From positions 1,674,001 to 1,738,000 of the forward strand of contig NZ_CP007139.1 in assembly GCF_000724625.1 (NCBI RefSeq): a stretch of 64,000 nucleotides of DNA, in the 5' to 3' direction. Source of the stretch: Fimbriimonas ginsengisoli Gsoil 348 (GTDB taxonomy: Bacteria; Armatimonadota; Fimbriimonadia; Fimbriimonadales; Fimbriimonadaceae). Below, one piece after another: positions 18,036-38,666 of this stretch. The notes below the pieces were generated by a model. That model was not told the origin of the DNA. It ran no database searches and saw only the letters and a program-made list of their open reading frames with translations. Made by a program: the position numbers and the translations under genes. Position 1 is the first letter of the stretch. Each line of letters starts with the position of its first letter.

Positions 18036-18064
18036 TAGCGGTTAGCAGTTGGCGGTTAGCGGTT
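18036..18064 (+). repeat. GCGGTTAGC-type repeat, copy 2
   Basis: AGCGGTTAGCAGTTGGCGG followed by TTAGCGGTT. It matches the minus strand of 10211-10238 with about one mismatch. Its 3' part forms the left arm of the hairpin at 18051-18083. Confidence 0.7.
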
Positions 18065-18083
18065 GTTCCTATCGCTAACCGCC
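18051..18083. terminator. Inverted repeat between convergent genes
   Basis: GGCGGTTAGCG (18051-18061) pairs exactly with CGCTAACCGCC (18073-18083). It lies between the DUF3352 stop (18026) and the stop of the minus-strand gene ending at 18091, so it probably serves as a two-way terminator. The T-tract is weak. Confidence 0.6.
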
Positions 18084-18090
18084 GTTGTAT

Positions 18091-21079: not shown

Positions 21080-23032
21080 CTACGCTTTAACGGTCGGCTC
21101 GTAGGCGACAAGAGTGGGGCCGTATTGCCGGATCTGCTCTCTGAACGGCTCGGCCTGGGCGCGAAGCTCGTTCTGTCGCTCGCGGAGCCGGACGGCCAAA
21201 TCGACGAGCTCTTCTTGGGCGGAAAGCAGCTCCCGCCGCATTGCCACATCCTCCCGGTGGATCTTTTCCAAGATCGATCGTTCTTCGTGCGGGGGGAGGG
21301 CGTAAGTGGAGGCGTGCCAGAACTGATCTTCCAGTGCGCGGCGCCACACGAGTAGGTCGTTCCATAGCTGCGATTCGAAATCGCGAACGCGCTTCAGGTT
21401 CTCCGGCACGATGTCGGCGGCGGTCTCGATTCCGCGGTCGTGCAATTGCGACAGCTTGCTACGCCCCTGGGCCGAATCGGCGGCGAGGATGGAGTACTTC
21501 CTCAAGTAGTGCTCCAGGTCGGCCCGGTGGAGCTGGCGCACCCGCTCTTCGCGAGCGGTCTCGTATCGCTTGTGGTTGTTTAGTAGTCCGTGCCTCAGGG
21601 TATTCAAGTCGCTCAGGCGCATCTCGTACACGTGCGCGTCAGCCTTGGAGGTCCACTCCTTCCAGAGCGATTCCAATCGATCGTTCGCCTTGCGGACGCG
21701 GCGGCGGACCCGCTCCACGAAGAAGCACTGAACGACGAAGATCACGATGGCGAGCGCCAGCAGAATCTGGACCGCCGGTCCGATCCGGATCAGCTCTCGC
21801 CCGAAGACGATGGACAGATAGATCACCCAAAACCCGGAATGGACGCCGCGAGCCAAGATCGGCCGGACGATCCACCTTTGCCACCCAGGGAGCTCGGCGG
21901 GGGCAAGCTGTTTGTAGTCGATGGGCGCGGGCGGATCTTCGACCTTGGGAAACGGAAGGGCGACCAGCCGTTTCCAAACTTCCTCGACGTCGAAGTCGGC
22001 GGCGGAGAGGGGATCGAGGGGAGCGGGGCGAAAGAGGGTGACGTTCCACTTCTCTTCAAGCGAGCACCAGGGGCAGCGACGCTGACCGTTCCAGTGGACG
22101 TGGCTGCCATTGACGTCGCAGGCGCCAAGCGTGCCCTCCAACTCCTTCAACGCGCCGAACCACTCGCGGGCGCTCGGCCGGACCGGCTCCGCGGGGTCGA
22201 AGGCGCGCTCGAACAGCTCCTTGATTTCGGGAGGTAGAAAATCCAGATCGAGGTGCGGGGGCGGCGCGACCGGCACTTGCCTTCGGTCGGTGAACACATA
22301 CCAGCCGCGTTGGATCGACTCTTCCAGCGGGACGTCGACGTCCCGTTCGGGCCGCCCGGCGAACGGATGCCGTCCGAAGACGAGGGTCTGAAAGATGAGG
22401 ACCGCCAGCGCGAATCGGTCCTGGTCGGCGGTTCTCTCCGTCCCTTCGAGCGATTGCCCCTGCAATTCGGGGGCGAGCAGCTCCGGCTTGCCGACCTTAC
22501 AGGGGTAAAGGGTGTTCTCGACGCGGATCTGGAACGAGTCGGCGTCGATGATCTTCACCATCGCGTCGGGCCCCACTAGGATGTTCGACTCGTTGAGGTC
22601 GCCGATCACTAGATCGTGGTCGTGGGCGTGGTGGACGCAAGTCGCGAGGTTACGAGCGATACGCACGAGGTATGCCCACGATCGGTTCGGCGCGTGTTGA
22701 AGACGCGATCGGATCTGATAGGCGGAGTGAAGCGGCTGCCAGCCCTCGAGCGACTCCATGACGAAGCCGACGGTTTTATCCTCGGCGTCGCAAAGGCGGC
22801 TCAGCGGCCAGGCGGCGACGCGCCGCAACCGCTTGTTGCTAACGTCGATTAGGCCGTGGAGCTTGGCGTCGCGGGTGTATTCCCACTCCTTGTACAGCTT
22901 GGCGACGACGTCGTCGCGTCCCTGGATCCGGTAGACGATCCCCTCGCCCCCTTCGGCGATGACCGACCCAAGGCGGTACTCGCGGGAATCTCCCGCGAGG
23001 AGCGCGCCGGGGCCGTAGTCGGAGGCAAGCAT
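21080..23032 (-). CDS. Ser/Thr kinase with zinc ribbon, TM hairpin and helix-hairpin-helix (TerY-P type)
   Basis: 650 residues. Kinase domain at about 20-300: glycine loop IAEGGEGIVY (25-34), lysine K45 in VVAKLYKE, catalytic loop GDLNESNIL (D145, N150) and metal Asp D163 in IIDADS in place of DFG. A zinc-ribbon-like cluster follows (C305, H311/H313, C320, C323). Two membrane segments lie near 395-440 (VIYLSIVFG, ILLALAIVIFVV). A charged coiled coil surrounds a helix-hairpin-helix-like stretch near 530-550 (SKLSQLHDRGIETAADI). Kinase plus zinc ribbon plus HhH is the architecture known from TerY-P triad kinases. It lies 3 bases after the PP2C gene, which supports this assignment. It is probably membrane-anchored with the kinase in the cytoplasm. 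Confidence 0.85.
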   Translation of the reverse strand: MLASDYGPGALLAGDSREYRLGSVIAEGGEGIVYRIQGRDDVVAKLYKEWEYTRDAKLHGLIDVSNKRLRRVAAWPLSRLCDAEDKTVGFVMESLEGWQPLHSAYQIRSRLQHAPNRSWAYLVRIARNLATCVHHAHDHDLVIGDLNESNILVGPDAMVKIIDADSFQIRVENTLYPCKVGKPELLAPELQGQSLEGTERTADQDRFALAVLIFQTLVFGRHPFAGRPERDVDVPLEESIQRGWYVFTDRRQVPVAPPPHLDLDFLPPEIKELFERAFDPAEPVRPSAREWFGALKELEGTLGACDVNGSHVHWNGQRRCPWCSLEEKWNVTLFRPAPLDPLSAADFDVEEVWKRLVALPFPKVEDPPAPIDYKQLAPAELPGWQRWIVRPILARGVHSGFWVIYLSIVFGRELIRIGPAVQILLALAIVIFVVQCFFVERVRRRVRKANDRLESLWKEWTSKADAHVYEMRLSDLNTLRHGLLNNHKRYETAREERVRQLHRADLEHYLRKYSILAADSAQGRSKLSQLHDRGIETAADIVPENLKRVRDFESQLWNDLLVWRRALEDQFWHASTYALPPHEERSILEKIHREDVAMRRELLSAQEELVDLAVRLRERQNELRAQAEPFREQIRQYGPTLVAYEPTVKA

Positions 23033-23035
23033 TTT

Positions 23036-23755
23036 CTAAGTCCTACGAGCGACGACGATGGAGGTGTCGTCGTCCGTTCGATTGGTCACCATTTCGGAGG
23101 CCAGCATATTCGACAACCAGGCTTCGGCGGCAGAGTCGTTTCCCTGGGGAGCCCGAATATTTCGGAACACGGTCTGGAAAAACGCCTCGTGGGGCGCATC
23201 GGTCCCCGGATGAAGAACAAGGCCCTGGATTCCATCAGTAAACAGGGCTAAATCCTGTATAGATCCTATCACTTCGCGCACCTTGAGATGCTCGTGAGCG
23301 GTGGTCATTGTGACGAAATAGGTGGTGTTGAGAAACTCGCCCTGGTCGGGGATGATTGCGGTTTCGTATCCCTCTTCGATGCGGAAGACGGCGGCGCCGT
23401 CGCCTACCTGCATGAAGATCGACTTCTCGGGTCCGACGGCGGCGGCCACGAGGGTACAGGCGAGGTCATCGATCGGAACGTTCTGATCTTTGGCGGTGAG
23501 GGCGACGACGTCCTGGATCGCGGTCAGAACCGCGGCGGGGCCATCGGACGCCAGTCTCTGCGGGGCGGCGCCGAGGAACGTGGTGACCGCGACCATGGAG
23601 CCCAAATAGGAGCATGGAGCCGAACCGGCGCCGTCCGAGACGGCGGCATACAGCGTTTCCCCGATCACGCGGCAACCGGCCCAGTCGGCGCACGTCTTGC
23701 CGGGTCCGGCGCGGCGGGCGTAGGCGTGAGCCCACTGGCCCGTCGTCACGTTCAT
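23036..23755 (-). CDS. PP2C-family protein phosphatase (TerY-P type)
   Basis: 239 residues from ATG 23755, chosen because it overlaps the vWA stop by four bases (ATGA). The frame is open further upstream inside the vWA gene. The PP2C metal motifs are in order: AAVSDGAGSA (D41, G42), DLACTLVAAAV, MQVGDGAAVF, ALFTDGIQGL and the final DDTSIVVA. It would remove phosphate from Ser/Thr set by the neighbouring kinase. Length is typical for the compact PP2C_2 group. It is cytoplasmic and has no extra domains. Confidence 0.9.
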   Translation of the reverse strand: MNVTTGQWAHAYARRAGPGKTCADWAGCRVIGETLYAAVSDGAGSAPCSYLGSMVAVTTFLGAAPQRLASDGPAAVLTAIQDVVALTAKDQNVPIDDLACTLVAAAVGPEKSIFMQVGDGAAVFRIEEGYETAIIPDQGEFLNTTYFVTMTTAHEHLKVREVIGSIQDLALFTDGIQGLVLHPGTDAPHEAFFQTVFRNIRAPQGNDSAAEAWLSNMLASEMVTNRTDDDTSIVVARRT

Positions 23756-24435
23756 AGCTGGATCTCGCCCCACGCCGACGGCGACGGCAAGTCGAGCGCG
23801 GTACCGGGAACGCCCCGGCTTACCGGCTTCAGCGACTGCGAAAGCCACACGAACATCTCGCGGTACCTCGCCTCGCGCAGCCACACGGGCGAGCGCGGCG
23901 CGCCGATCTTCTTCAGCACGTTGACGTCCGCATTGTCGGTGCCGATGGTGAACATCTCGATTCCGCCCGATTTGACTTCGGCCTGCACCTCGTCACACGC
24001 CTCCTGCCAGGCATCGGTCGGCTCGCCGTCGGTGACGAGCCAGATCCAGGGGCGATAGTAGGGGATGCCGGCCTCGCGATAGGCGCGCTTCCGGGCTTTG
24101 ACCTGCTTGATGGCGAAGCGGAGCCCTTGGCCGAGCGGGGTGTTTCCTTCCGCGTGCAGCCGAGGAGGGAGCCATCGGTCGACGGTGACGAAGTCTTGGA
24201 TAAGCTGAACCGGGCCAAAGGTGATGACCGCGATCTCGACCCGCTGGGAGGCGAGGCGGTCGCCAAGGAGGTCGCTTCGGAGGACCTGGAGGCCCTCGTT
24301 CACCTTGTGAATGTGGGGCGCCATCGAGGTCGAGGTGTCTTGGAGGAGCACCACGGGGCACCGCCGCTCGGAGTTGAGGAACATCTCCTCGCTCAGCGGT
24401 TCAAGCTCGGGAAAATCGTGCCGGGACGTGTCCAT
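23752..24435 (-). CDS. vWA-domain protein, TerY-like
   Basis: 227 residues, a single von Willebrand A domain. The MIDAS motif D33-T-S35-T-S37 (LLQDTSTSM) is intact, followed by NTPLGQGLRFA-type text near 110 and LVTDGEPTDAW near 140. Length and sequence match TerY (about 210-230 residues), the tellurite-resistance-associated vWA protein that binds metal and partner proteins in the cytoplasm. It leads the run vWA, PP2C, kinase. The other ter genes (terB, terC, terD) are not in the window. Confidence 0.88.
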   Translation of the reverse strand: MDTSRHDFPELEPLSEEMFLNSERRCPVVLLQDTSTSMAPHIHKVNEGLQVLRSDLLGDRLASQRVEIAVITFGPVQLIQDFVTVDRWLPPRLHAEGNTPLGQGLRFAIKQVKARKRAYREAGIPYYRPWIWLVTDGEPTDAWQEACDEVQAEVKSGGIEMFTIGTDNADVNVLKKIGAPRSPVWLREARYREMFVWLSQSLKPVSRGVPGTALDLPSPSAWGEIQL

Positions 24436-24670: not shown

Positions 24671-26266
24671 GTGTTTATTTTGAATTTTATTGCCATCAAA
24701 TCATTTGCGAGGCCCTATCTGGGAACGATAGCCTGCCTCGGCGCACTGTTCGTCATCGGCTGTGGAGGCGGCGGTGGGAGTCAGGGAAGTGGCTCGTCCA
24801 CGGGAACCGCTTCAGGGCTAAGCACGGGGAGTTCCACTGGGTCGTCTGGGAGCCACGGCTCGACCGCCACCGCTTCCGGTACGGGATCGACGACAGGTTC
24901 TACCACCGCTTCGACAACGGGAACGACCACTGCTTCGACCACGGGATCTTCCACCGGCACGACGAGTACGGCTACGGGGACCACGAACGGGACCGGCACT
25001 GGGTCTACAACGGGGACGACCACCGCGTCTACAACTTCCTCGACAACCGGGACAACGACGGGGACGACCACTGCGTCGACAACCGGGACCACGACGGCGA
25101 CTAGCAACGGAACAGCGACCGGCACCTCCGGTACCACTACCGGAACAGCGACTGGAACGACCGGGACTACTAACGGATCTACGACCGGCACATCCGGTAC
25201 CACTACCGGATCTACGACCGGGACCACCACTGGATCGACAACAGGGACCACGGGGACAACCACGTCATCGTCCACCACTGGAACGTCGACCGGAACTACT
25301 GGCACGACAACTGCGTCGACGACCGGCACGACGGGGACCACCACTGGGACAACTACTGGGACCACCACCGGGACATCGACGTCGGGAACTACGACGGGGA
25401 CCACCGGCTCAACGACTGGCACCACTGGCGGCGATCCGTTTCTTCCCGGATCGACCGCCCTCTACATTCCACGGACCGGTGAAGCTGATCTTGTTTTGGG
25501 CGATCTGAACGGGAACCAACTGCTCCCGCTAGCCCACCTCATAAATCTTACTGGCGCTCGTTTCAGCCCCGACCGTAGGCTTCTCTACTTTATCGGCACC
25601 TTCAGCATCGAGGACTCCGGCATCTATTCCATTCGTCGCGATGGCACCGGTCTTACCAGGGTCGTTGACTTCAGTCTTCAGGTTCAGCCCTCGTGCTTCA
25701 CCGTAAGCCCGGACGGTACCCGGCTCCTTTACGCTCAGGACACCACTATTTATGAATGGAATCTGGCAAGCAGATCTGCGCGACCGATATATTCCGGAAG
25801 GCCTTTCGGTGGCATCGATTGGGATCCCCAGGATCGCTTTATCTACCTGGCCGAGTGGAAATTCTCGCACAACGGCCAGTTCGACCTCAAGCGGATGCGA
25901 ATAGGTCAAACGGTCCCCGAGCTCTTGGGGGTGGACGGGGTTTGCCCACGCTTCAGTCCTGACGGAAATCTTCTCTGCTACGTCTCGGTCGCCCCAAATT
26001 CCTCTGGACTCGAGGGATTGGAACCGTTCACCATGCCCGTGACCGAACTCGGTGGAGATCATGGAACCCAGGTCGCGGATACGATTCCGTTCGGCACTAT
26101 CTGCTTTGCGGGTTCTGTACACAAACTGTATTTGGAGGGGGATCCTTCCATCCTCGATTTGGACACCGGCAATATCCAAAAACTGTCTGGCGTCGCGGCC
26201 GGGACCCGAATCTTCGACTGCGTGCCGTTATCGGCGCCTCGGTCTCCTCGACGGAGGCACCGGTAG
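24671..26266 (+). CDS. Lipoprotein with long Thr/Gly/Ser linker and TolB/WD40-like propeller
   Basis: 531 residues from GTG 24671. A lipobox, VIGC, ends the signal peptide and is followed by a glycine run (GGGGGS). Residues about 40-255 are almost only Thr, Gly and Ser (repeats of the TTTGTTTG kind), encoded by imperfect trinucleotide repeats. From about 260 the text changes to beta-propeller-like blades of the TolB/WD40-PD40 type (LINLTGARFSPDRRLLYFIG, CFTVSPDGTRLLYAQDTTIY, VCPRFSPDGNLLCYVS). The Thr-rich part probably works as a long, possibly glycosylated, stalk that places the propeller away from the membrane, which is inference. Confidence 0.8.
   Translation: MFILNFIAIKSFARPYLGTIACLGALFVIGCGGGGGSQGSGSSTGTASGLSTGSSTGSSGSHGSTATASGTGSTTGSTTASTTGTTTASTTGSSTGTTSTATGTTNGTGTGSTTGTTTASTTSSTTGTTTGTTTASTTGTTTATSNGTATGTSGTTTGTATGTTGTTNGSTTGTSGTTTGSTTGTTTGSTTGTTGTTTSSSTTGTSTGTTGTTTASTTGTTGTTTGTTTGTTTGTSTSGTTTGTTGSTTGTTGGDPFLPGSTALYIPRTGEADLVLGDLNGNQLLPLAHLINLTGARFSPDRRLLYFIGTFSIEDSGIYSIRRDGTGLTRVVDFSLQVQPSCFTVSPDGTRLLYAQDTTIYEWNLASRSARPIYSGRPFGGIDWDPQDRFIYLAEWKFSHNGQFDLKRMRIGQTVPELLGVDGVCPRFSPDGNLLCYVSVAPNSSGLEGLEPFTMPVTELGGDHGTQVADTIPFGTICFAGSVHKLYLEGDPSILDLDTGNIQKLSGVAAGTRIFDCVPLSAPRSPRRRHR
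24790..25425 (+). repeat. Low-complexity Thr/Gly/Ser-coding repeat
   Basis: About 640 bases of imperfect short repeats (ACCACTGGGACC, TCGACAACGGGAACG and variants) that encode the linker of the 24671 lipoprotein. The tract could change length by slippage. It also makes the antisense frame open, as a Val/Pro string that is not a gene. Confidence 0.85.
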
Positions 26267-32235: not shown

Positions 32236-32835
32236 ATGTTATTTGCCGCCGTACGCGAAAGGGCTAGAACCACCGTTCAGGATCGAACGGCGCTGTTCGA
32301 GCAACTTATTAGGGACACGAATAAGCAGGCTTACAGCCTCGCTTACCGGTTGACCGGCAACAGCGCCGAAGCCGAGGATTTGGTCCAAGAGTCGTTTCTC
32401 CGCGCCTACCGCTTTTTCCACCGATACGACGACTCGCTCCCGTTCACGAGCTGGCTCTACCGGATCATGACGAACGCGCACATCGACATGGTGCGCCGCC
32501 GTGGCCGAATTCGAACCACCAGCCTCGAAAGCGCAGGCAGCGACGGCACGACCACCTGGGACCTTCCGGACACCGAGGCCGCCCCCGATCGAGTGATGAT
32601 GGAGAATTCGCTAGAAGAGCCTGTCCAAAAGGCGCTTATGGCGATGACGCCGGAATTCCGAACGGCGGTGCTCCTCGCGGACGTAGAAGGAATGGCCTAC
32701 GAGGAGGTCGCTGACATTATGAGGACGTCGGTCGGAACCGTGCGAAGCCGCATTCACCGCGGTCGGAAGCAGATAAGGAATCATCTGTTGAAGCACGCAC
32801 CTCAAACCTACGGGAGTTTCTGCGATGAACTGTAA
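32236..32835 (+). CDS. ECF RNA polymerase sigma factor (RpoE-like)
   Basis: 199 residues. Region 2 at about 20-95 (AYSLAYRLTGNSAEAEDLVQESFLRAYRFFHRYD, then FTSWLYRIMTNAHIDMVRR). Region 4 at about 130-185 (LMAMTPEFRTAVLLADVEG, YEEVADIMRTSVGTVRSRIHRGRKQIR). There is no region 3, as in group 4 sigma factors. It directs polymerase to stress promoters and is held by the anti-sigma factor encoded next, whose start overlaps its stop by 11 bases. Gene order matches algT/rpoE operons. Confidence 0.93.
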   Translation: MLFAAVRERARTTVQDRTALFEQLIRDTNKQAYSLAYRLTGNSAEAEDLVQESFLRAYRFFHRYDDSLPFTSWLYRIMTNAHIDMVRRRGRIRTTSLESAGSDGTTTWDLPDTEAAPDRVMMENSLEEPVQKALMAMTPEFRTAVLLADVEGMAYEEVADIMRTSVGTVRSRIHRGRKQIRNHLLKHAPQTYGSFCDEL

Positions 32836-33322
32836 ATCGGTCCAGAACCAGCTCTCGGCCTACCTCGACCGAGAAGTGGCCGGCGACGAAATGCTCGCCA
32901 TCCGCGCCCATCTGCACGATTGCGACGAGTGCCGCGACGAAGCGGAAGCGCTGAAAATGTTGAAGCGTATGCTCACCGAGAGCCCGGTCCCCGAGCCTTC
33001 GGCCGACTTTGCCGATCGGCTCTGCGCGGCGGTGCTCTCCAGCCGTACGTCGATGGACGTCGAAAAGCGAGACAACCGAATTACGTTGCGCGCTTCGCTT
33101 ATTACCTTCAGCAGCGTTGCCGCCTTTTCGATGGCGCTCACTTTCGCGGCGTTGACAAACTCCCGGCCGGGATCGAGTCCCACGGCCGTTCCGATGTCGG
33201 TCGATACCGCGAGCTCGCACGACCTCGCGTTCCAAGTTCAAAGAGATCAGATGTGGGCTACCGGCCTTGATTCAACGAGCGGCGTGCCCGTGATCTCGAG
33301 TCCGAGCCATGCGCGGCGCTAG
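32825..33322 (+). CDS. Zinc-binding anti-sigma factor (ZAS / zf-HC2)
   Basis: 165 residues. The N-terminal zinc motif is H29-x3-C33-x2-C36 with C3 near the start (MNCKSVQNQLSAYLDREV; HLHDCDECRDEA). One membrane segment follows at about 95-112 (LITFSSVAAFSMALTFAAL) and a short extracytoplasmic tail. It would bind the 32236 sigma factor at the membrane until it is released by proteolysis. It overlaps both neighbours (11 bases with sigma, 14 with the RseB-like gene). Confidence 0.9.
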   Translation: MNCKSVQNQLSAYLDREVAGDEMLAIRAHLHDCDECRDEAEALKMLKRMLTESPVPEPSADFADRLCAAVLSSRTSMDVEKRDNRITLRASLITFSSVAAFSMALTFAALTNSRPGSSPTAVPMSVDTASSHDLAFQVQRDQMWATGLDSTSGVPVISSPSHARR

Positions 33323-34451
33323 TCATCTGCTCGCCGCCGGCTGCACGTTCGCCCTAGCGGCCGGTGTCGCCATGGGCAGCGGGGCGACGGGTAGCGGCGC
33401 AAAACATAGATCGAGGGCGTTCGACCTGCTGTCCCGGACTATGCAGCCGACGCTCAAGGTGAACGTCGTCTCCATCACCCTCCAGCGCGATCCGCGCGGA
33501 GAAGGGCAATTTCAAGAGATCAAGCTGGTTCGCTCCAAAGCCGGCAAGCAGCGCTGGGTCGTCACGAAGCCGCTTCGGTTTGCGGGGCGTGAGTGTGTGG
33601 ACGACGGCGAGCGGCAGCTCATGTACTTTCCCGACCGCCGGCAGTTGACCGACCAACAGTCCGCCGCTAAAGCCCCTTGCGACGCCCCCGAGAAGATCGC
33701 ATTGGCGAAACGGAACTATACGTTTCAGATTGCCTCGCGGGAAACGATCGCCGGGCGAAATACGGTTTGCGTGACGGCGATTCCGCGAAACCCTGATCTG
33801 TTGGTCCGCAACTATTTCATCGACGAAGAGGCGGCCTACCCCCTTCGAGTCGAGACCGTGGGGACCGACGGCCGTGCGAACGTGATGTTCGACACGAAAT
33901 TCATCGAATATCCGGCGAAGCTCCCGAACTCGGTGTTCAAGCTCTCGGCGGTGCTTGGAAACGTCCACAAGATTACGTACAACCCGCCGGAGACGATGAG
34001 CCGAATCAAGGCTCGCGCGATGGTAGGGTTCGTGCCCTTGATCCCGAACGGTTTGCCGATGGGTTTTAAAGTCCAGGAGCTGCAGTACAACCCCGGATCG
34101 GAGTGGAAGTCGGTGATGGTTCGGCTCACCGACGGACTTGCGCGGGCGACGGTCTATCAGTGGAAAGGGCAGGATATCGAGTTTCCGGACAGCACGCCGG
34201 GCGAATATAACGGAATCAAGCTTCTCATTGTCTCCGACCTCGGGCCGAAGGTACGACAGAAGCTGCTTCAGACATTTGTCTCGCAGGCTACGAGCGACGA
34301 AGCAAAAGCGCTTCGCATTTACGGCTCCCGGCATCGGAGCGAGTGGGACCTCCCGATCTATATGGAACCACGACGGATTGGCGAGGCGTTATCAGAAATA
34401 GATCGCTTCTTCGAATCGACCGCGCTTCCGAGGGCTAACACGGAAAGCTGA
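33309..34451 (+). CDS. RseB/MucB-like periplasmic sigma-E regulator
   Basis: 380 residues with a signal peptide (LLAAGCTFALAAGVAMGSG). The N-terminal domain has the LolA/RseB beta-sheet pattern (VVSITLQRDPRGEGQFQEIKLVRSKAGK, then ECVDDGERQLMYFPDRRQ). The C-terminal domain (from about 230, GFVPLIPNGLPMGFKVQEL, later RLTDGLARATVYQW) matches the small MucB/RseB C domain. It would sense envelope damage and shield the anti-sigma factor from cleavage. Its place, third after sigma and anti-sigma, is as in rpoE-rseA-rseB. Confidence 0.8.
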   Translation: MRGASHLLAAGCTFALAAGVAMGSGATGSGAKHRSRAFDLLSRTMQPTLKVNVVSITLQRDPRGEGQFQEIKLVRSKAGKQRWVVTKPLRFAGRECVDDGERQLMYFPDRRQLTDQQSAAKAPCDAPEKIALAKRNYTFQIASRETIAGRNTVCVTAIPRNPDLLVRNYFIDEEAAYPLRVETVGTDGRANVMFDTKFIEYPAKLPNSVFKLSAVLGNVHKITYNPPETMSRIKARAMVGFVPLIPNGLPMGFKVQELQYNPGSEWKSVMVRLTDGLARATVYQWKGQDIEFPDSTPGEYNGIKLLIVSDLGPKVRQKLLQTFVSQATSDEAKALRIYGSRHRSEWDLPIYMEPRRIGEALSEIDRFFESTALPRANTES

Positions 34452-34503
34452 GGTCACCTTCCCGTTCGAGGGGGCGTCCTTTATCTTGAAAAGCAGAGAA
34501 GAA

Positions 34504-36108
34504 ATGAGCAAACCTTTAAAGACCTCAACGAACGCTTATGTTCTGATCGCGGCCGGCTTCGGTCTTGGCGCCGTAAGCATGGCTGGTCTATTTCACAGTG
34601 CGAACGCCTCGCCCGACTATTCGAGCACGAGCGGCGCCCGCATGCGGGTCGCTTCGGCGCCGACGTCGGAGAGCATGGCGACCCTTCACGCGATCGACTC
34701 GTCGTACGAAAACCTCGCCGACTTCGTCTCGCCGGCGGTGGTCGACATCGAATCGGTCCGAAACGGCCGCCACATGGGCGCGAACGGAGAGCGGCTCCCG
34801 ATCGCCGGCGGCGAAGGGAGCGGGTTCATCTTCCGTCCGGACGGCTACATCATCACCAACGACCACGTGGTCGGCGGCTTCGACAAGGTGACGGTAACGC
34901 TCAAAGACGGACGCCGCTTCGTGGGCAAGGTGACCCGGGCCGAGGATAGCGATATCGCCTTGGTCAAGATCGACGCGAAAGATCTGCCGACCCTTGCGAT
35001 GGCCGACAGCAGCAAGGTTCGCACCGGCCAAACCGTGATGGCGATCGGCGCCCCGTTCGGCCTCCAGCAGTCGGTGACCTTCGGTCACGTTAGCGCCCTT
35101 GGGCGGATCAACGCGATCGAGGACAAGATGTACCCCGACCTGATCCAGACCGACGCTCCGATCAACATGGGGAACTCGGGCGGACCGCTCGTCAACATCG
35201 ATGGCCAGGTGGTCGGGGTGAACACCTCGATTCTGAGCCCGTCCGGCGTCAGCGCGGGGATCGGCTTCGCTATTCCAAGCAACCAGATCCGGTTCATCGC
35301 GGATATCCTCACCCAAAAGGGCAAGCTCACCCGGAGCATGCTGGGGCTCCGCCCACAGAACCTTAAGGAGTACCAGAAGCAGGAGATGAAGCTGACCGGC
35401 GGCGCTATCGTCGAGTCGGTGGAAAGCAACGGTCCTTCGGAAGCAGCCGGAATCAAAGCCGGGGACGTGGTGGTCCGAATCGGCACCACTCCGGTGTCGA
35501 GCCAGCTCGACCTGCGGAACGCGATGCTAGTCTACGCGCCAGGTACTACAGTACCCGTGGAGGTCGTTCGCGACGGTAAGCACCTGACGTTCAATGTGAA
35601 GCTCACGGAGTTTAAGCGCCCGGTTAGCGAGCAACTTCAAAATCTGGACGGCAAAACGTTCCAGCTACCGAAGGGTACGGATCCGTTCAAGGACATCCCC
35701 AATCTCAAGGATTTCCCCAACCTAAAGGACTTCCGCGGGTTGAAGGACTTCCCCGGGCTAGGCAATCCCGGCCAAGACGAGGAGACCGTTCCTCCGCTCC
35801 GCGAGGGGCGGCCAAGGCTCGGAATCTCGGTGGGAGATATCACGGCCGAGGAGCGCAAAGCGCGCAGCATCCCGGCCAGCGTGAACGGAGCCTACGTTGC
35901 GCTCGTCACCCCCGGCTCGGTCGCCGAGAGGGCCGGCCTTAAGGAGGGGGACGTCATCGTCGCCCTCGGCGGAAAGTCGATCTCGACGGCGAAGGGGCTC
36001 ACCGACCTTATGAGCGACGTGAAGCTCGGCGATACGAAGAGCATCAAGTTCCTCCGGTTCGGAAAGGGAGCTCAGATGTCGGAAGAGCGAACGGTCACCT
36101 TCAAGTAA
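34504..36108 (+). CDS. HtrA/DegP-family serine protease with two PDZ domains
   Basis: 534 residues from ATG 34504. A TTG at 34486 is an alternative start, six codons upstream. An N-terminal membrane segment (YVLIAAGFGLGAVSMAGLF) is followed by a trypsin-like domain with triad H121 (ITNDHVV), D150 (EDSDIALVKI) and S225 (NMGNSGGPLV). PDZ1 lies near 275-380 (GGAIVESVESNGPSEAAGI). PDZ2 lies near 430-530 (GAYVALVTPGSVAERAGLKEGDVI). Between them is a repeated linker (KDIPNLKDFPNLKDFRGLKD). It degrades or refolds damaged envelope proteins. As the fourth gene of the sigma operon it corresponds to MucD. A strong terminator follows. Confidence 0.95.
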   Translation: MSKPLKTSTNAYVLIAAGFGLGAVSMAGLFHSANASPDYSSTSGARMRVASAPTSESMATLHAIDSSYENLADFVSPAVVDIESVRNGRHMGANGERLPIAGGEGSGFIFRPDGYIITNDHVVGGFDKVTVTLKDGRRFVGKVTRAEDSDIALVKIDAKDLPTLAMADSSKVRTGQTVMAIGAPFGLQQSVTFGHVSALGRINAIEDKMYPDLIQTDAPINMGNSGGPLVNIDGQVVGVNTSILSPSGVSAGIGFAIPSNQIRFIADILTQKGKLTRSMLGLRPQNLKEYQKQEMKLTGGAIVESVESNGPSEAAGIKAGDVVVRIGTTPVSSQLDLRNAMLVYAPGTTVPVEVVRDGKHLTFNVKLTEFKRPVSEQLQNLDGKTFQLPKGTDPFKDIPNLKDFPNLKDFRGLKDFPGLGNPGQDEETVPPLREGRPRLGISVGDITAEERKARSIPASVNGAYVALVTPGSVAERAGLKEGDVIVALGGKSISTAKGLTDLMSDVKLGDTKSIKFLRFGKGAQMSEERTVTFK

Positions 36109-36127
36109 TCGCGCTGACTGACCAGCG

Positions 36128-36164
36128 AAAAAATCCCGTGCCGGGTAGCGGCACGGGATTTTTT
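36128..36164 (+). terminator. Rho-independent terminator after htrA
   Basis: AAAAAATCCCGTGCC (36128-36142), loop, GGCACGGGATTTTTT (36150-36164). A GC stem is flanked by A- and T-tracts, so it could work in both directions. Confidence 0.93.
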
Positions 36165-36183
36165 CGTTTAGTGGAGACGCAAA

Positions 36184-36213
36184 AGAGCCCGGTGGGGTTT
36201 CCCACCGGGCTCT
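36184..36213 (-). terminator. Rho-independent terminator of the Fur-family gene
   Basis: AGAGCCCGGTGGG (36184-36196), loop, CCCACCGGGCTCT (36201-36213). On the minus strand the stem is followed by TTTTGCG, and it sits 24 bases beyond the stop of the gene at 36238. Confidence 0.85.
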
Positions 36214-36237
36214 CGTGCAACGGGCGTCGTCTCGCTT

Positions 36238-36729
36238 TTAGCGGCCTTTCTTTAGGCAGCCGGTGATTTCGACCTTAATGGTCGAGGTTTCGAAACCGTT
36301 CTCTTTGGCCTGCTCTTCAATGGCGTCGACGACCGACTGAGGAAGCTTGAGCTCCATCACGTCGCCGGTCTCGTCGCAAACCATTACTTCGGAGCGCTTG
36401 CCATGGCAATTCTCTTGACGGCACGGGAAGTAGCCATCGACCACGCCAATGTGGTGGATCAGCCCGACTTCCTGCAGCGTAGAGAGGATCCGATAAACGG
36501 ACACGACGTCGATCTTGCCGCCGCCCGAGATGATCTTCTCGTGGATGGCGTAGGCGCTGAGCGCCTTCTTGGTGTCGGCCAAAGCGCGAATAACCTGAAC
36601 ACGCGGCATCGTGATGCGGTATCCGGCAGCACGCAGCTCTTTCAGCGAATGCTCTTCGTATACCTTTGCGTCGTCGATCATGGTCTGGTTAGAGGCGACC
36701 TGGGGTTCGCGGGAACGTCTTTCTCTCAT
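36238..36729 (-). CDS. Fur-family transcriptional regulator with atypical cysteines
   Basis: 163 residues from ATG 36729, with another in-frame ATG at residue 17 (MIDDAKVYEEH). The winged-helix domain is clear: LKELRAAGYRITMPRVQVIRAL, then SAYAIHEKI and DVVSVYRILSTLQEVGLIHHI. The dimer domain differs from standard Fur: VCDETGD stands where CxxCG is expected, GCLKKGR where a second CxxC is usual, and an extra CRQENCHGK precedes them. Metal binding is likely altered, so I cannot say Fur, Zur or PerR. A CATAAT box lies six bases before the ATG at 36729. This would suggest a leaderless transcript, or the internal start. It is divergent from the 36940 gene. Confidence 0.85.
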   Translation of the reverse strand: MRERRSREPQVASNQTMIDDAKVYEEHSLKELRAAGYRITMPRVQVIRALADTKKALSAYAIHEKIISGGGKIDVVSVYRILSTLQEVGLIHHIGVVDGYFPCRQENCHGKRSEVMVCDETGDVMELKLPQSVVDAIEEQAKENGFETSTIKVEITGCLKKGR

Positions 36730-36850
36730 GGTGATATTATGTGCTTACGCCTTGTTTGGACTGTTGACTCCACCTTGCCTGCTTTTTTCATCTGGTGACG
36801 ATGCTCGTTGTGTGTCCGACTCACTTGCATCGTTATTGTTCCGATCTTCG

Positions 36851-36879
36851 TATAATCTTGCCTAGGTTCCCTTGAACCT
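36851..36879 (+). promoter_or_regulatory. Promoter elements and inverted repeat before the 65-residue gene
   Basis: TATAAT (36851-36856) is a perfect -10 box on the plus strand. TTGCAT (36825-36830) is a possible -35, with a long 20-base spacer. Just downstream, AGGTTC (36864-36869), loop CCTT, GAACCT (36874-36879) forms a small perfect inverted repeat that could be an operator or an early hairpin in the leader. Confidence 0.5.
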
Positions 36880-36939
36880 GCGTTTGTGATAACATCCAAG
36901 CCGAACCGAGGGAGCACATGCTTCCAATGAGGAGGAGAA

Positions 36940-37137
36940 ATGCAGTTTTACAACCTGAAGACCCGGTCCCACGTTGAAATCCCGGAATCGGACGTCCGGA
37001 AAAAGAAAATGACCCGCAAAACCAAGACGGGTGAACAGACTCGTTATGCGCTCACCGCAACCTACGAAGGCACGCCGCTTTACAAATTTGTGAACGAGGC
37101 CACCTATACCTCGTCAAACGCAAAAGAAGTCGAATAA
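36940..37137 (+). CDS. 65-residue basic protein of unknown function, strongly expressed signals
   Basis: Begins MQFYNLKTRSHVEIPESDV and continues with a Lys-rich stretch KKKMTRKTKTGEQTRYAL, then a Tyr/Thr-rich tail. There is no Cys, signal peptide or membrane segment. It is preceded by AGGAGGAG at ideal spacing from ATG 36940 and followed by a textbook terminator (37159-37195), so it is an independent, probably abundant, mRNA. It is divergent from the Fur-family gene. I do not recognise the family. A nucleic-acid- or ribosome-associated role would fit its charge but is only a guess. Confidence 0.85.
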   Translation: MQFYNLKTRSHVEIPESDVRKKKMTRKTKTGEQTRYALTATYEGTPLYKFVNEATYTSSNAKEVE

Positions 37138-37158
37138 GTTTTTTCAAAAAAACTCACC

Positions 37159-37195
37159 GGGTCTAGGTCTTCCGACCTAGACCCGCTTCTTTTTT
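37159..37195 (+). terminator. Rho-independent terminator of the 65-residue gene
   Basis: GGGTCTAGGTC (37159-37169), loop TTCC, GACCTAGACCC (37174-37184), followed by GCTTCTTTTTT. Confidence 0.95.
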
Positions 37196-37259
37196 AACCC
37201 CTCGCCGGCAAACAAAAGCGGCGAGTGAACCGGATGGAAGCGCGGTCGTCAACGCGGGC

Positions 37260-38666
37260 ATGGCTCTCGTCACCGACCGCGACAAATGCGCGCACCTACT
37301 CCGCCGGTTCGGCCTCGGCGCCAGCGAGGCAGAGATCGATTTTTATCTCCAGGATGGGATGTCGGGCGCCATCGACCGCCTCCTCGACGACTCGATCCCC
37401 GACGGGGTCGACTTGGATCCCCAGCAGTTTTTGAACAACAACGGGATTCTCCCGACCCCGGTAGTCATCGACCTCTGGATCACCCGGATGATCATGACCC
37501 GGCGGCCGCTCCGGGAGAAGATGACTCTGTTCTGGCACGACCACTTCGCGACGAGCGCCAGCAAGGTTGCGAACACGATGATGATGCTCCAGCAGAACGA
37601 ACTGATGCGCAAGAACGCGCTGGGTTCGTTCCGGACCCTTCTCACGGAGGTCAGCAAGGACCCCGCCATGATCTACTGGCTCGACAACCAGCAGAACGTG
37701 AAGGGACACCCAAACGAGAATTTCGCCCGCGAAGTGATGGAGCTTTTCACTTTGGGGATCGGCAACTACACCGAGAAAGACGTTCAGGAGGGAGCGCGGG
37801 CGTTCACCGGCTGGTCGCTTCGCGGCCAGGGACAGAAGCTGGGCAAGCGGTTTCCCGCCGAGTTTTTGTTCCGTCCGCTCGTCCACGACGATGGGATCAA
37901 GACGTTCTTGGGGAACAGCTCAAACTTCAACGGCGACGACGTTCTGAACATCCTCTGCGACCAACCGCGAACATCGGAGTACCTCACCACCAAGATTTGG
38001 AACTGGTTTGTGTGGCCGCAACCGGATGCGGCGACGATCGCTCCGTTTGCGAAGCGATTCCGCGAGAGCGGCTTGGACATCAAGTCGCTCATCAAAGACA
38101 TCATGAAGTCGAGTGAGTTTTACTCGTCTCGCGCCGAACGGACGGTGATTAAAAATCCGGTCGACTTCTGCGTCGCCACCTTGCGTCAGCTCGGGGTGGG
38201 GGAGCAGGTTTCCCGCCGGCTGGGCGCGGTCGCAGCCGGGGAAACGGTTCCTCGCGGCGTCCTTGCTCCCGCTCACGTTGCGCAGCTATCTATGAAGGGG
38301 ATGGGGATGTGGCTCATGTATCCGCCGGACGTGGCCGGATGGAACACAGGTGAATCTTGGATTACCTCGGCCACGGTGGTGGAGCGGATCGAGTGGTCCG
38401 ACAAGATCTTTGGCCAAGGGAAAACTGCGAAGCTCGAGCTTCGGTACCCCGCCTACGGACTCCTCAAAGACGATACAACGCCGAATGCGGTTGTGGATAA
38501 GTTGCTGTCGATCTTCGACGCGCCGATAAAGGCCGACAAGCGCGCCGCGCTTATCGCGGCGGCGACGAAGGTATCCGGAGGGCAACTGACGCCGGAAAAC
38601 GCCAATCAGGTCGCGGCTTTGGTCTCCCGTCTGATCTTCGCCACCCCGGACTTCCAGTTCGGCTAA
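37260..38666 (+). CDS. DUF1800 domain-containing protein
   Basis: 468 residues covering the whole DUF1800 family: HLLRRFGLGASEAEIDFYL at the start, LREKMTLFWHDHFATS near 83, NENFAREVMELFTLGIGNYTEKDVQEGARAFTGW near 150 and MGMWLMYPPDVAGWNTGESWI near 350. It lacks the signal peptide some members have. Function is unknown. In many bacteria it is paired with a DUF1501 sulfatase-like gene, which is absent here. The stop is close to the convergent ABC exporter gene. Confidence 0.92.
   Translation: MALVTDRDKCAHLLRRFGLGASEAEIDFYLQDGMSGAIDRLLDDSIPDGVDLDPQQFLNNNGILPTPVVIDLWITRMIMTRRPLREKMTLFWHDHFATSASKVANTMMMLQQNELMRKNALGSFRTLLTEVSKDPAMIYWLDNQQNVKGHPNENFAREVMELFTLGIGNYTEKDVQEGARAFTGWSLRGQGQKLGKRFPAEFLFRPLVHDDGIKTFLGNSSNFNGDDVLNILCDQPRTSEYLTTKIWNWFVWPQPDAATIAPFAKRFRESGLDIKSLIKDIMKSSEFYSSRAERTVIKNPVDFCVATLRQLGVGEQVSRRLGAVAAGETVPRGVLAPAHVAQLSMKGMGMWLMYPPDVAGWNTGESWITSATVVERIEWSDKIFGQGKTAKLELRYPAYGLLKDDTTPNAVVDKLLSIFDAPIKADKRAALIAAATKVSGGQLTPENANQVAALVSRLIFATPDFQFG

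Follow-up and report, generated by a model that had tools for sequence, protein, structure and literature searches.

A TerY-P signalling triad with a zinc-ribbon, membrane-segment kinase in Fimbriimonas ginsengisoli Gsoil 348

The window analysed here, a stretch of 64,000 nucleotides (1,674,001-1,738,000 of the single 5,231,762-base contig), contains genes for a vWA protein, a PP2C-type phosphatase and a Ser/Thr protein kinase that together probably constitute a self-contained TerY-P switch of the common subtype in which the kinase carries a zinc ribbon, a membrane segment and a helix-hairpin-helix (HhH) region. The likeliest trigger of this switch would be phage infection or nucleic-acid damage, and the MFS transporter and stalk-domain genes that follow it are probably unrelated to it. 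One well-supported member is thereby added to a very widespread signalling triad. The genes of the locus are as follows.

24435-23752, minus strand: vWA (TerY-like) protein, 227 amino acids, MIDAS motif DTSTS...T...D (Pfam VWA, 1.5e-11)
23755-23036, minus strand: PP2C-type phosphatase, 239 amino acids when started at the ATG overlapping the vWA stop codon (Pfam PP2C_2, 1.5e-35)
23032-21080, minus strand: Ser/Thr protein kinase, 650 amino acids (Pfam Pkinase, 4.7e-11)
21047-19806, minus strand: MFS transporter of the TetA-like drug:H+ group (Pfam MFS_1, 1.4e-51), a neighbour only
19752-18091, minus strand: secreted-type protein with a stalk domain (Pfam Cu_amine_oxidN1, 1.5e-11), a neighbour only

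The coordinates of the open reading frames bear out the initial annotation of three touching genes: the vWA and PP2C genes share an ATGA overlap (23755-23752), and three bases (23035-23033) separate the PP2C gene from the kinase gene. Coordinates and Pfam matches also agree with the description of an MFS gene and a stalk-domain gene downstream in the same direction, the kinase and MFS genes being 32 bp apart and the MFS and stalk genes 53 bp apart. On the other side of the vWA gene, a low-complexity stretch (24781-25425) encodes a long Thr/Ser/Gly-rich linker within a divergently transcribed PD40-repeat gene (24671-26266), and beyond the stalk gene, a stem-loop of 14 pairs (18050-18084) between that gene and a convergent DUF3352 gene is likely a shared terminator.

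The three proteins were compared by hhalign with those of a ter-plasmid triad, giving probabilities of 99.2% for the vWA protein, 98.4% for PP2C and 99.0% for the kinase, the match of which extends through the zinc ribbon. TerY-P has been defined as a vWA protein, a PP2C phosphatase and a kinase with a zinc ribbon (PMC11090510); since each protein of the window triad is homologous to its ter-plasmid counterpart, the kinase through its zinc ribbon, the triad conforms to this definition and its earlier identification as TerY-P stands. The attributes of TerY-P membership that sequence can show are present, namely a vWA protein with a MIDAS, a PP2C with catalytic aspartates, a kinase with a C-terminal zinc ribbon, and conserved operon-like adjacency of the genes. 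The MIDAS residues D33, S35, S37, T99 and D136 are invariant among eight aligned vWA sequences, as are D24, DGAG 41-44, GDGA 118-121, DG 174-175 and DDD 228-230 among seven PP2C sequences, and K45, GDxN 144-147, D163/D165 and C305/H311/C320/C323 among 32 kinase sequences. These invariant motifs and the Pfam matches confirm the domains that had been considered diagnostic (vWA with DTSTS, PP2C, and kinase with zinc ribbon). A sequence search of the PDB with the vWA and PP2C proteins returned zero matches.

The kinase can be divided into four parts.

Residues about 10-300: kinase domain (Pfam Pkinase; Foldseek match to kinases, 1.5e-9)
Residues 305-323: CHCC zinc ribbon, C305-H311-C320-PW-C323 (C-x5-H-x8-C-PW-C)
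Residues about 392-440: membrane segment or segments (hydrophobicity)
Residues about 513-575: coiled coil with a degenerate HhH (alignment with homologues)

In a confident AlphaFold2 model (mean pLDDT 88.8), the kinase fold leads into the zinc ribbon, which is followed by either a single membrane segment or a membrane hairpin and then by a long coiled coil that an HhH-like region breaks up. The models show the C-terminal half as helical, and a fold search with the C-terminal coiled coil and HhH gave no significant match. Of the two membrane segments proposed initially, one is clear (the best 19-residue window starts at residue 421, with a Kyte-Doolittle value of 2.81), but the other, at residues 392-410, is weak, with a value of only 1.52. 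Of 35 full-length non-cyanobacterial homologues, 31 have a strong segment at this place as well, which makes the membrane part characteristic of the family and not of this genome alone. The HhH of the homologues consists of two hairpins of the form GIG...GIETAAD...VPGFG...LLxWR, and the Pfam model HHH_5 scores in eight of 31 homologues. The HhH attributed to the window kinase is recognizable by alignment with these homologues, but no Pfam HhH model scores in it and its hairpin glycines are degenerate, the glycine loops reading DSAQGR and VRDFES. Therefore, the DNA-contacting hairpins are eroded in the window kinase, and from its sequence DNA binding should not be assumed. The architecture as a whole (kinase, zinc ribbon, membrane segment, and coiled coil with HhH) is a common one that does not distinguish this genome.

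A scan with the vWA alignment confirmed at least 541 stretches in bacteria and archaea. The best 80 of these at least 541 are distributed among Armatimonadota, Cyanobacteria, Proteobacteria, Firmicutes, Acidobacteriota, Planctomycetota, Chloroflexota, Myxococcota, Gemmatimonadota and methanogenic archaea, and at most of the 80 loci the genes occur in the order vWA-PP2C-kinase on one strand. When pairwise protein distances were computed for 50 loci, they were correlated with r values of 0.94, 0.89 and 0.93, versus a maximum of 0.37 in 2000 permutations, and without cyanobacteria r was 0.78-0.91, still well above the permutations. The three proteins thus co-diverge and form one unit. Neither neighbour clustering nor Pfam analysis of operon-linked neighbours revealed a fourth partner recurring across phyla; two clusters (7 and 16) with apparent recurrence next to or overlapping the triad looked, by their coordinates, like antisense open reading frames and were discarded. 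Distribution is patchy at closer range, with relatives of the kinase in seven of 80 related genomes and relatives of the vWA protein in 40 of 291 Armatimonadota genomes. One triad of Fimbriimonadaceae includes two full-length tandem kinase genes (L017:7739-13234, the same as L043:8980-14475).

As the conserved catalytic motifs suggest, the kinase would phosphorylate targets from which PP2C would remove the phosphates, while the vWA protein, through its metal-dependent MIDAS, may serve as an adaptor by which the kinase/PP2C pair is assembled or gated. A membrane tether is predicted for the kinase, whose catalytic, zinc-ribbon and coiled-coil/HhH parts would all be cytoplasmic. The C-terminal end of the kinase varies, whereas the kinase domain, zinc ribbon, phosphatase and vWA protein are fixed, which points to the C-terminal part as the sensor; the likely sensor would be the zinc ribbon together with the coiled-coil end.

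The biological role of TerY-P had been called unclear, which is partly true, but the role is no longer wholly open because protection against phages is reported for related TerY-P systems. Variants of TerY-P are reported to protect P. aeruginosa from phages such that most infected cells survive (PMC10889362), and activity against T7-like phages has been reported (PMC7699616); TerY-P has also been found with CoCoNuT restriction systems (PMC11090510) and in an island of H. pylori (PMC4978471). The window triad has the marks of neither the ter-plasmid subtype nor the OB-fold subtype, and a phage role is therefore extrapolated to it. This role is favoured by the patchy distribution, by a Sphingomonas plasmid triad that lies beside HerA-, SMC- and nuclease-type genes, and by contigs of the IMG/VR viral collection, which are candidate phages only, with complete vWA-PP2C-kinase triads on three of them (L169, L170 and L171) and partial triads on two (L172 and L173). 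Against it, the stand-alone anti-phage TerY-P has been described with an OB fold (PMC11090510), PADLOC does not call the window triad, and in several Fimbriimonadaceae the triad stays close to a conserved locus of the chromosome, as a mobile defence island would not. A nucleic-acid-binding role is weakened by the loss of the HhH hairpin glycines from the window kinase.

Operon-linked neighbours elsewhere, according to Pfam, are assorted housekeeping genes and not mainly defence genes, which also counts against a phage role. If such ordinary neighbours across phyla are given more weight, along with the widespread occurrence of the triad in cyanobacteria with diverse kinase C-termini, the triad could instead switch some everyday process of the cytoplasm, such as DNA repair or translation, by phosphorylation and have nothing specifically to do with phages. 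This alternative is the less probable one, though it deserves consideration; the patchiness of the triad among close relatives and its presence on a conjugative plasmid and on some of the viral-collection contigs are atypical of housekeeping genes.

At a distance of about 8 kb from the triad, the window carries a locus with genes for a sigma-E-like factor, an anti-sigma factor, an RseB-like protein, HtrA, Fur and a DUF1800 protein (32236-38666). In three genomes and on one contig (G025, G017, G034 and the G144 contig; loci L011, L012, L014 and L176), the triad is within a few kb of genes of this locus (sigma/RseB/HtrA, Fur, DUF1800). This proximity, together with the membrane anchoring of the kinase that the model and hydrophobicity predict, could mean that the triad acts with the sigma-E/anti-sigma/RseB/HtrA locus (32236-36105) to regulate envelope or cell-surface stress and not phage defence. 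Such a function is improbable: the linkage is missing from the stretches examined in six other genomes (G035, G020, G048, G010, G146 and G149), genomes without the triad still carry HtrA and a sigma-E-type factor, and a few related genomes may simply have inherited the shared placement. In an empty-site comparison, the gene order around the alanyl-tRNA synthetase side and the HtrA side was scrambled among congeners. Even more doubtful is the narrower proposal that a TerY-P clade of Fimbriimonadaceae lost its HhH hairpins and was recruited beside sigma-E/RseB/HtrA as a membrane envelope-stress phospho-switch instead of a sensor of nucleic acid or phage.

The initial annotation had joined the triad to the MFS and stalk genes as a possible stress- or toxin-sensing system tied to export. 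The MFS protein matches the Tet(A)/(B)/(C) family model at 4.8e-103, below the cut-off of that model. The triad is flanked by no MFS or stalk homologue at eight relative loci, each viewed with about 10 kb to either side, nor at another eleven from the phylum, some of which lie on short contigs, nor at the best 80 of the at least 541 loci in the wider genome collection. Orthologues of the MFS protein occur in two congeners (73% identity in G019 and 71% in G005), beside a triad in neither: the gene is surrounded by carbohydrate-active enzymes in G005, which has no relative of the vWA protein at the threshold used, and adjoins a PQQ/beta-propeller protein in G019, in which a triad of another clade is located on a different contig. 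For the stalk protein, a search of 50 related genomes yielded only two marginal matches and no close relative. Since no terminator was predicted in the 32 bp between the kinase and MFS genes, read-through transcription of the MFS gene from the triad may occur in this genome, but judging from the gene orders compared it is not a conserved functional link. That triad, exporter and stalk protein form one sensing unit coupled to export is hardly credible, for although the genes share a strand, lie 32 and 53 bp apart and may be joined by read-through, they are unlinked at every relative locus examined, the MFS orthologues are away from triads and, with 50 relatives compared, the stalk protein is almost confined to this genome. 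The attachment of these genes to the triad is accordingly rejected, their lack of linkage being the outcome that the initial annotation had itself named as refuting it, and on this comparative evidence they are chance neighbours, an accident of one genome.

The preferred reading, a TerY-P switch independent of its neighbours, can be set against four kinds of known system. The enterobacterial ter-plasmid triad (for example NZ_MW598242.1) combines these three families in an identical order, with homology over the vWA protein, the PP2C and the kinase as far as its zinc ribbon. At the ter-plasmid locus of Klebsiella and E. coli, a vWA protein with TerY_C, a PP2C and an 'InaA-type' kinase are encoded beside TerD. 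The ter-plasmid TerY has a C-terminal metal-binding TerY_C domain (2.3e-52), which Pfam does not detect in the window vWA protein; the plasmid PP2C has 577 amino acids, in contrast to 239 in the window; and membrane, coiled-coil and HhH parts distinguish the window kinase from that of the plasmid. Thus the window triad has neither TerY_C nor adjacent TerD-family genes, the two features of the ter-plasmid subtype. The initial remark that ter genes are lacking is correct for TerD, which is absent from the genome, but two TerC genes exist, though far from the triad; linkage to TerD is rejected.

The stand-alone anti-phage TerY-P (Gao et al. 2020; the P. aeruginosa variant, PMC10889362) is likewise a three-gene set of vWA protein, phosphatase and kinase that suffices as a unit. 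In the Gao type, an OB fold is reported to replace the zinc ribbon of the kinase (PMC11090510), whereas the C-terminal half of the window kinase is helical. In this comparison, for which the anti-phage sequences were represented by PADLOC models only, the best match to the TerY models was 0.013 for the vWA protein, with none for PP2C. The TerY-P of CoCoNuT types II and III-A and of the Helicobacter pylori island (PMC11090510, PMC4978471) has the same vWA protein, PP2C and zinc-ribbon kinase, but accompanies McrBC-type, HEPN or ATPase genes, none of which are among the Pfam-checked neighbours in the window.

The zinc-ribbon/TM/HhH TerY-P of a Sphingomonas panacis plasmid (NZ_CP014169.1), Saccharibacillus, Paenibacillus and Competibacter has the same gene order and zinc ribbon, and the window kinase aligns with the kinase of this subtype over nearly its full length, including the HhH region (E 8e-89). 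The triad of the Sphingomonas plasmid adjoins the HerA-, SMC- and nuclease-type genes, and almost the whole of its kinase can be aligned; on this conjugative plasmid (L120:108-9582), it is directly downstream of the HerA-like ATPase and SMC-like genes, with an annotated DNA repair exonuclease upstream, and its kinase ends in a topoisomerase-type zinc ribbon. Some members of the subtype have such an extra C-terminal zinc ribbon or intact GIG/GFG hairpins, both of which the window kinase lacks.
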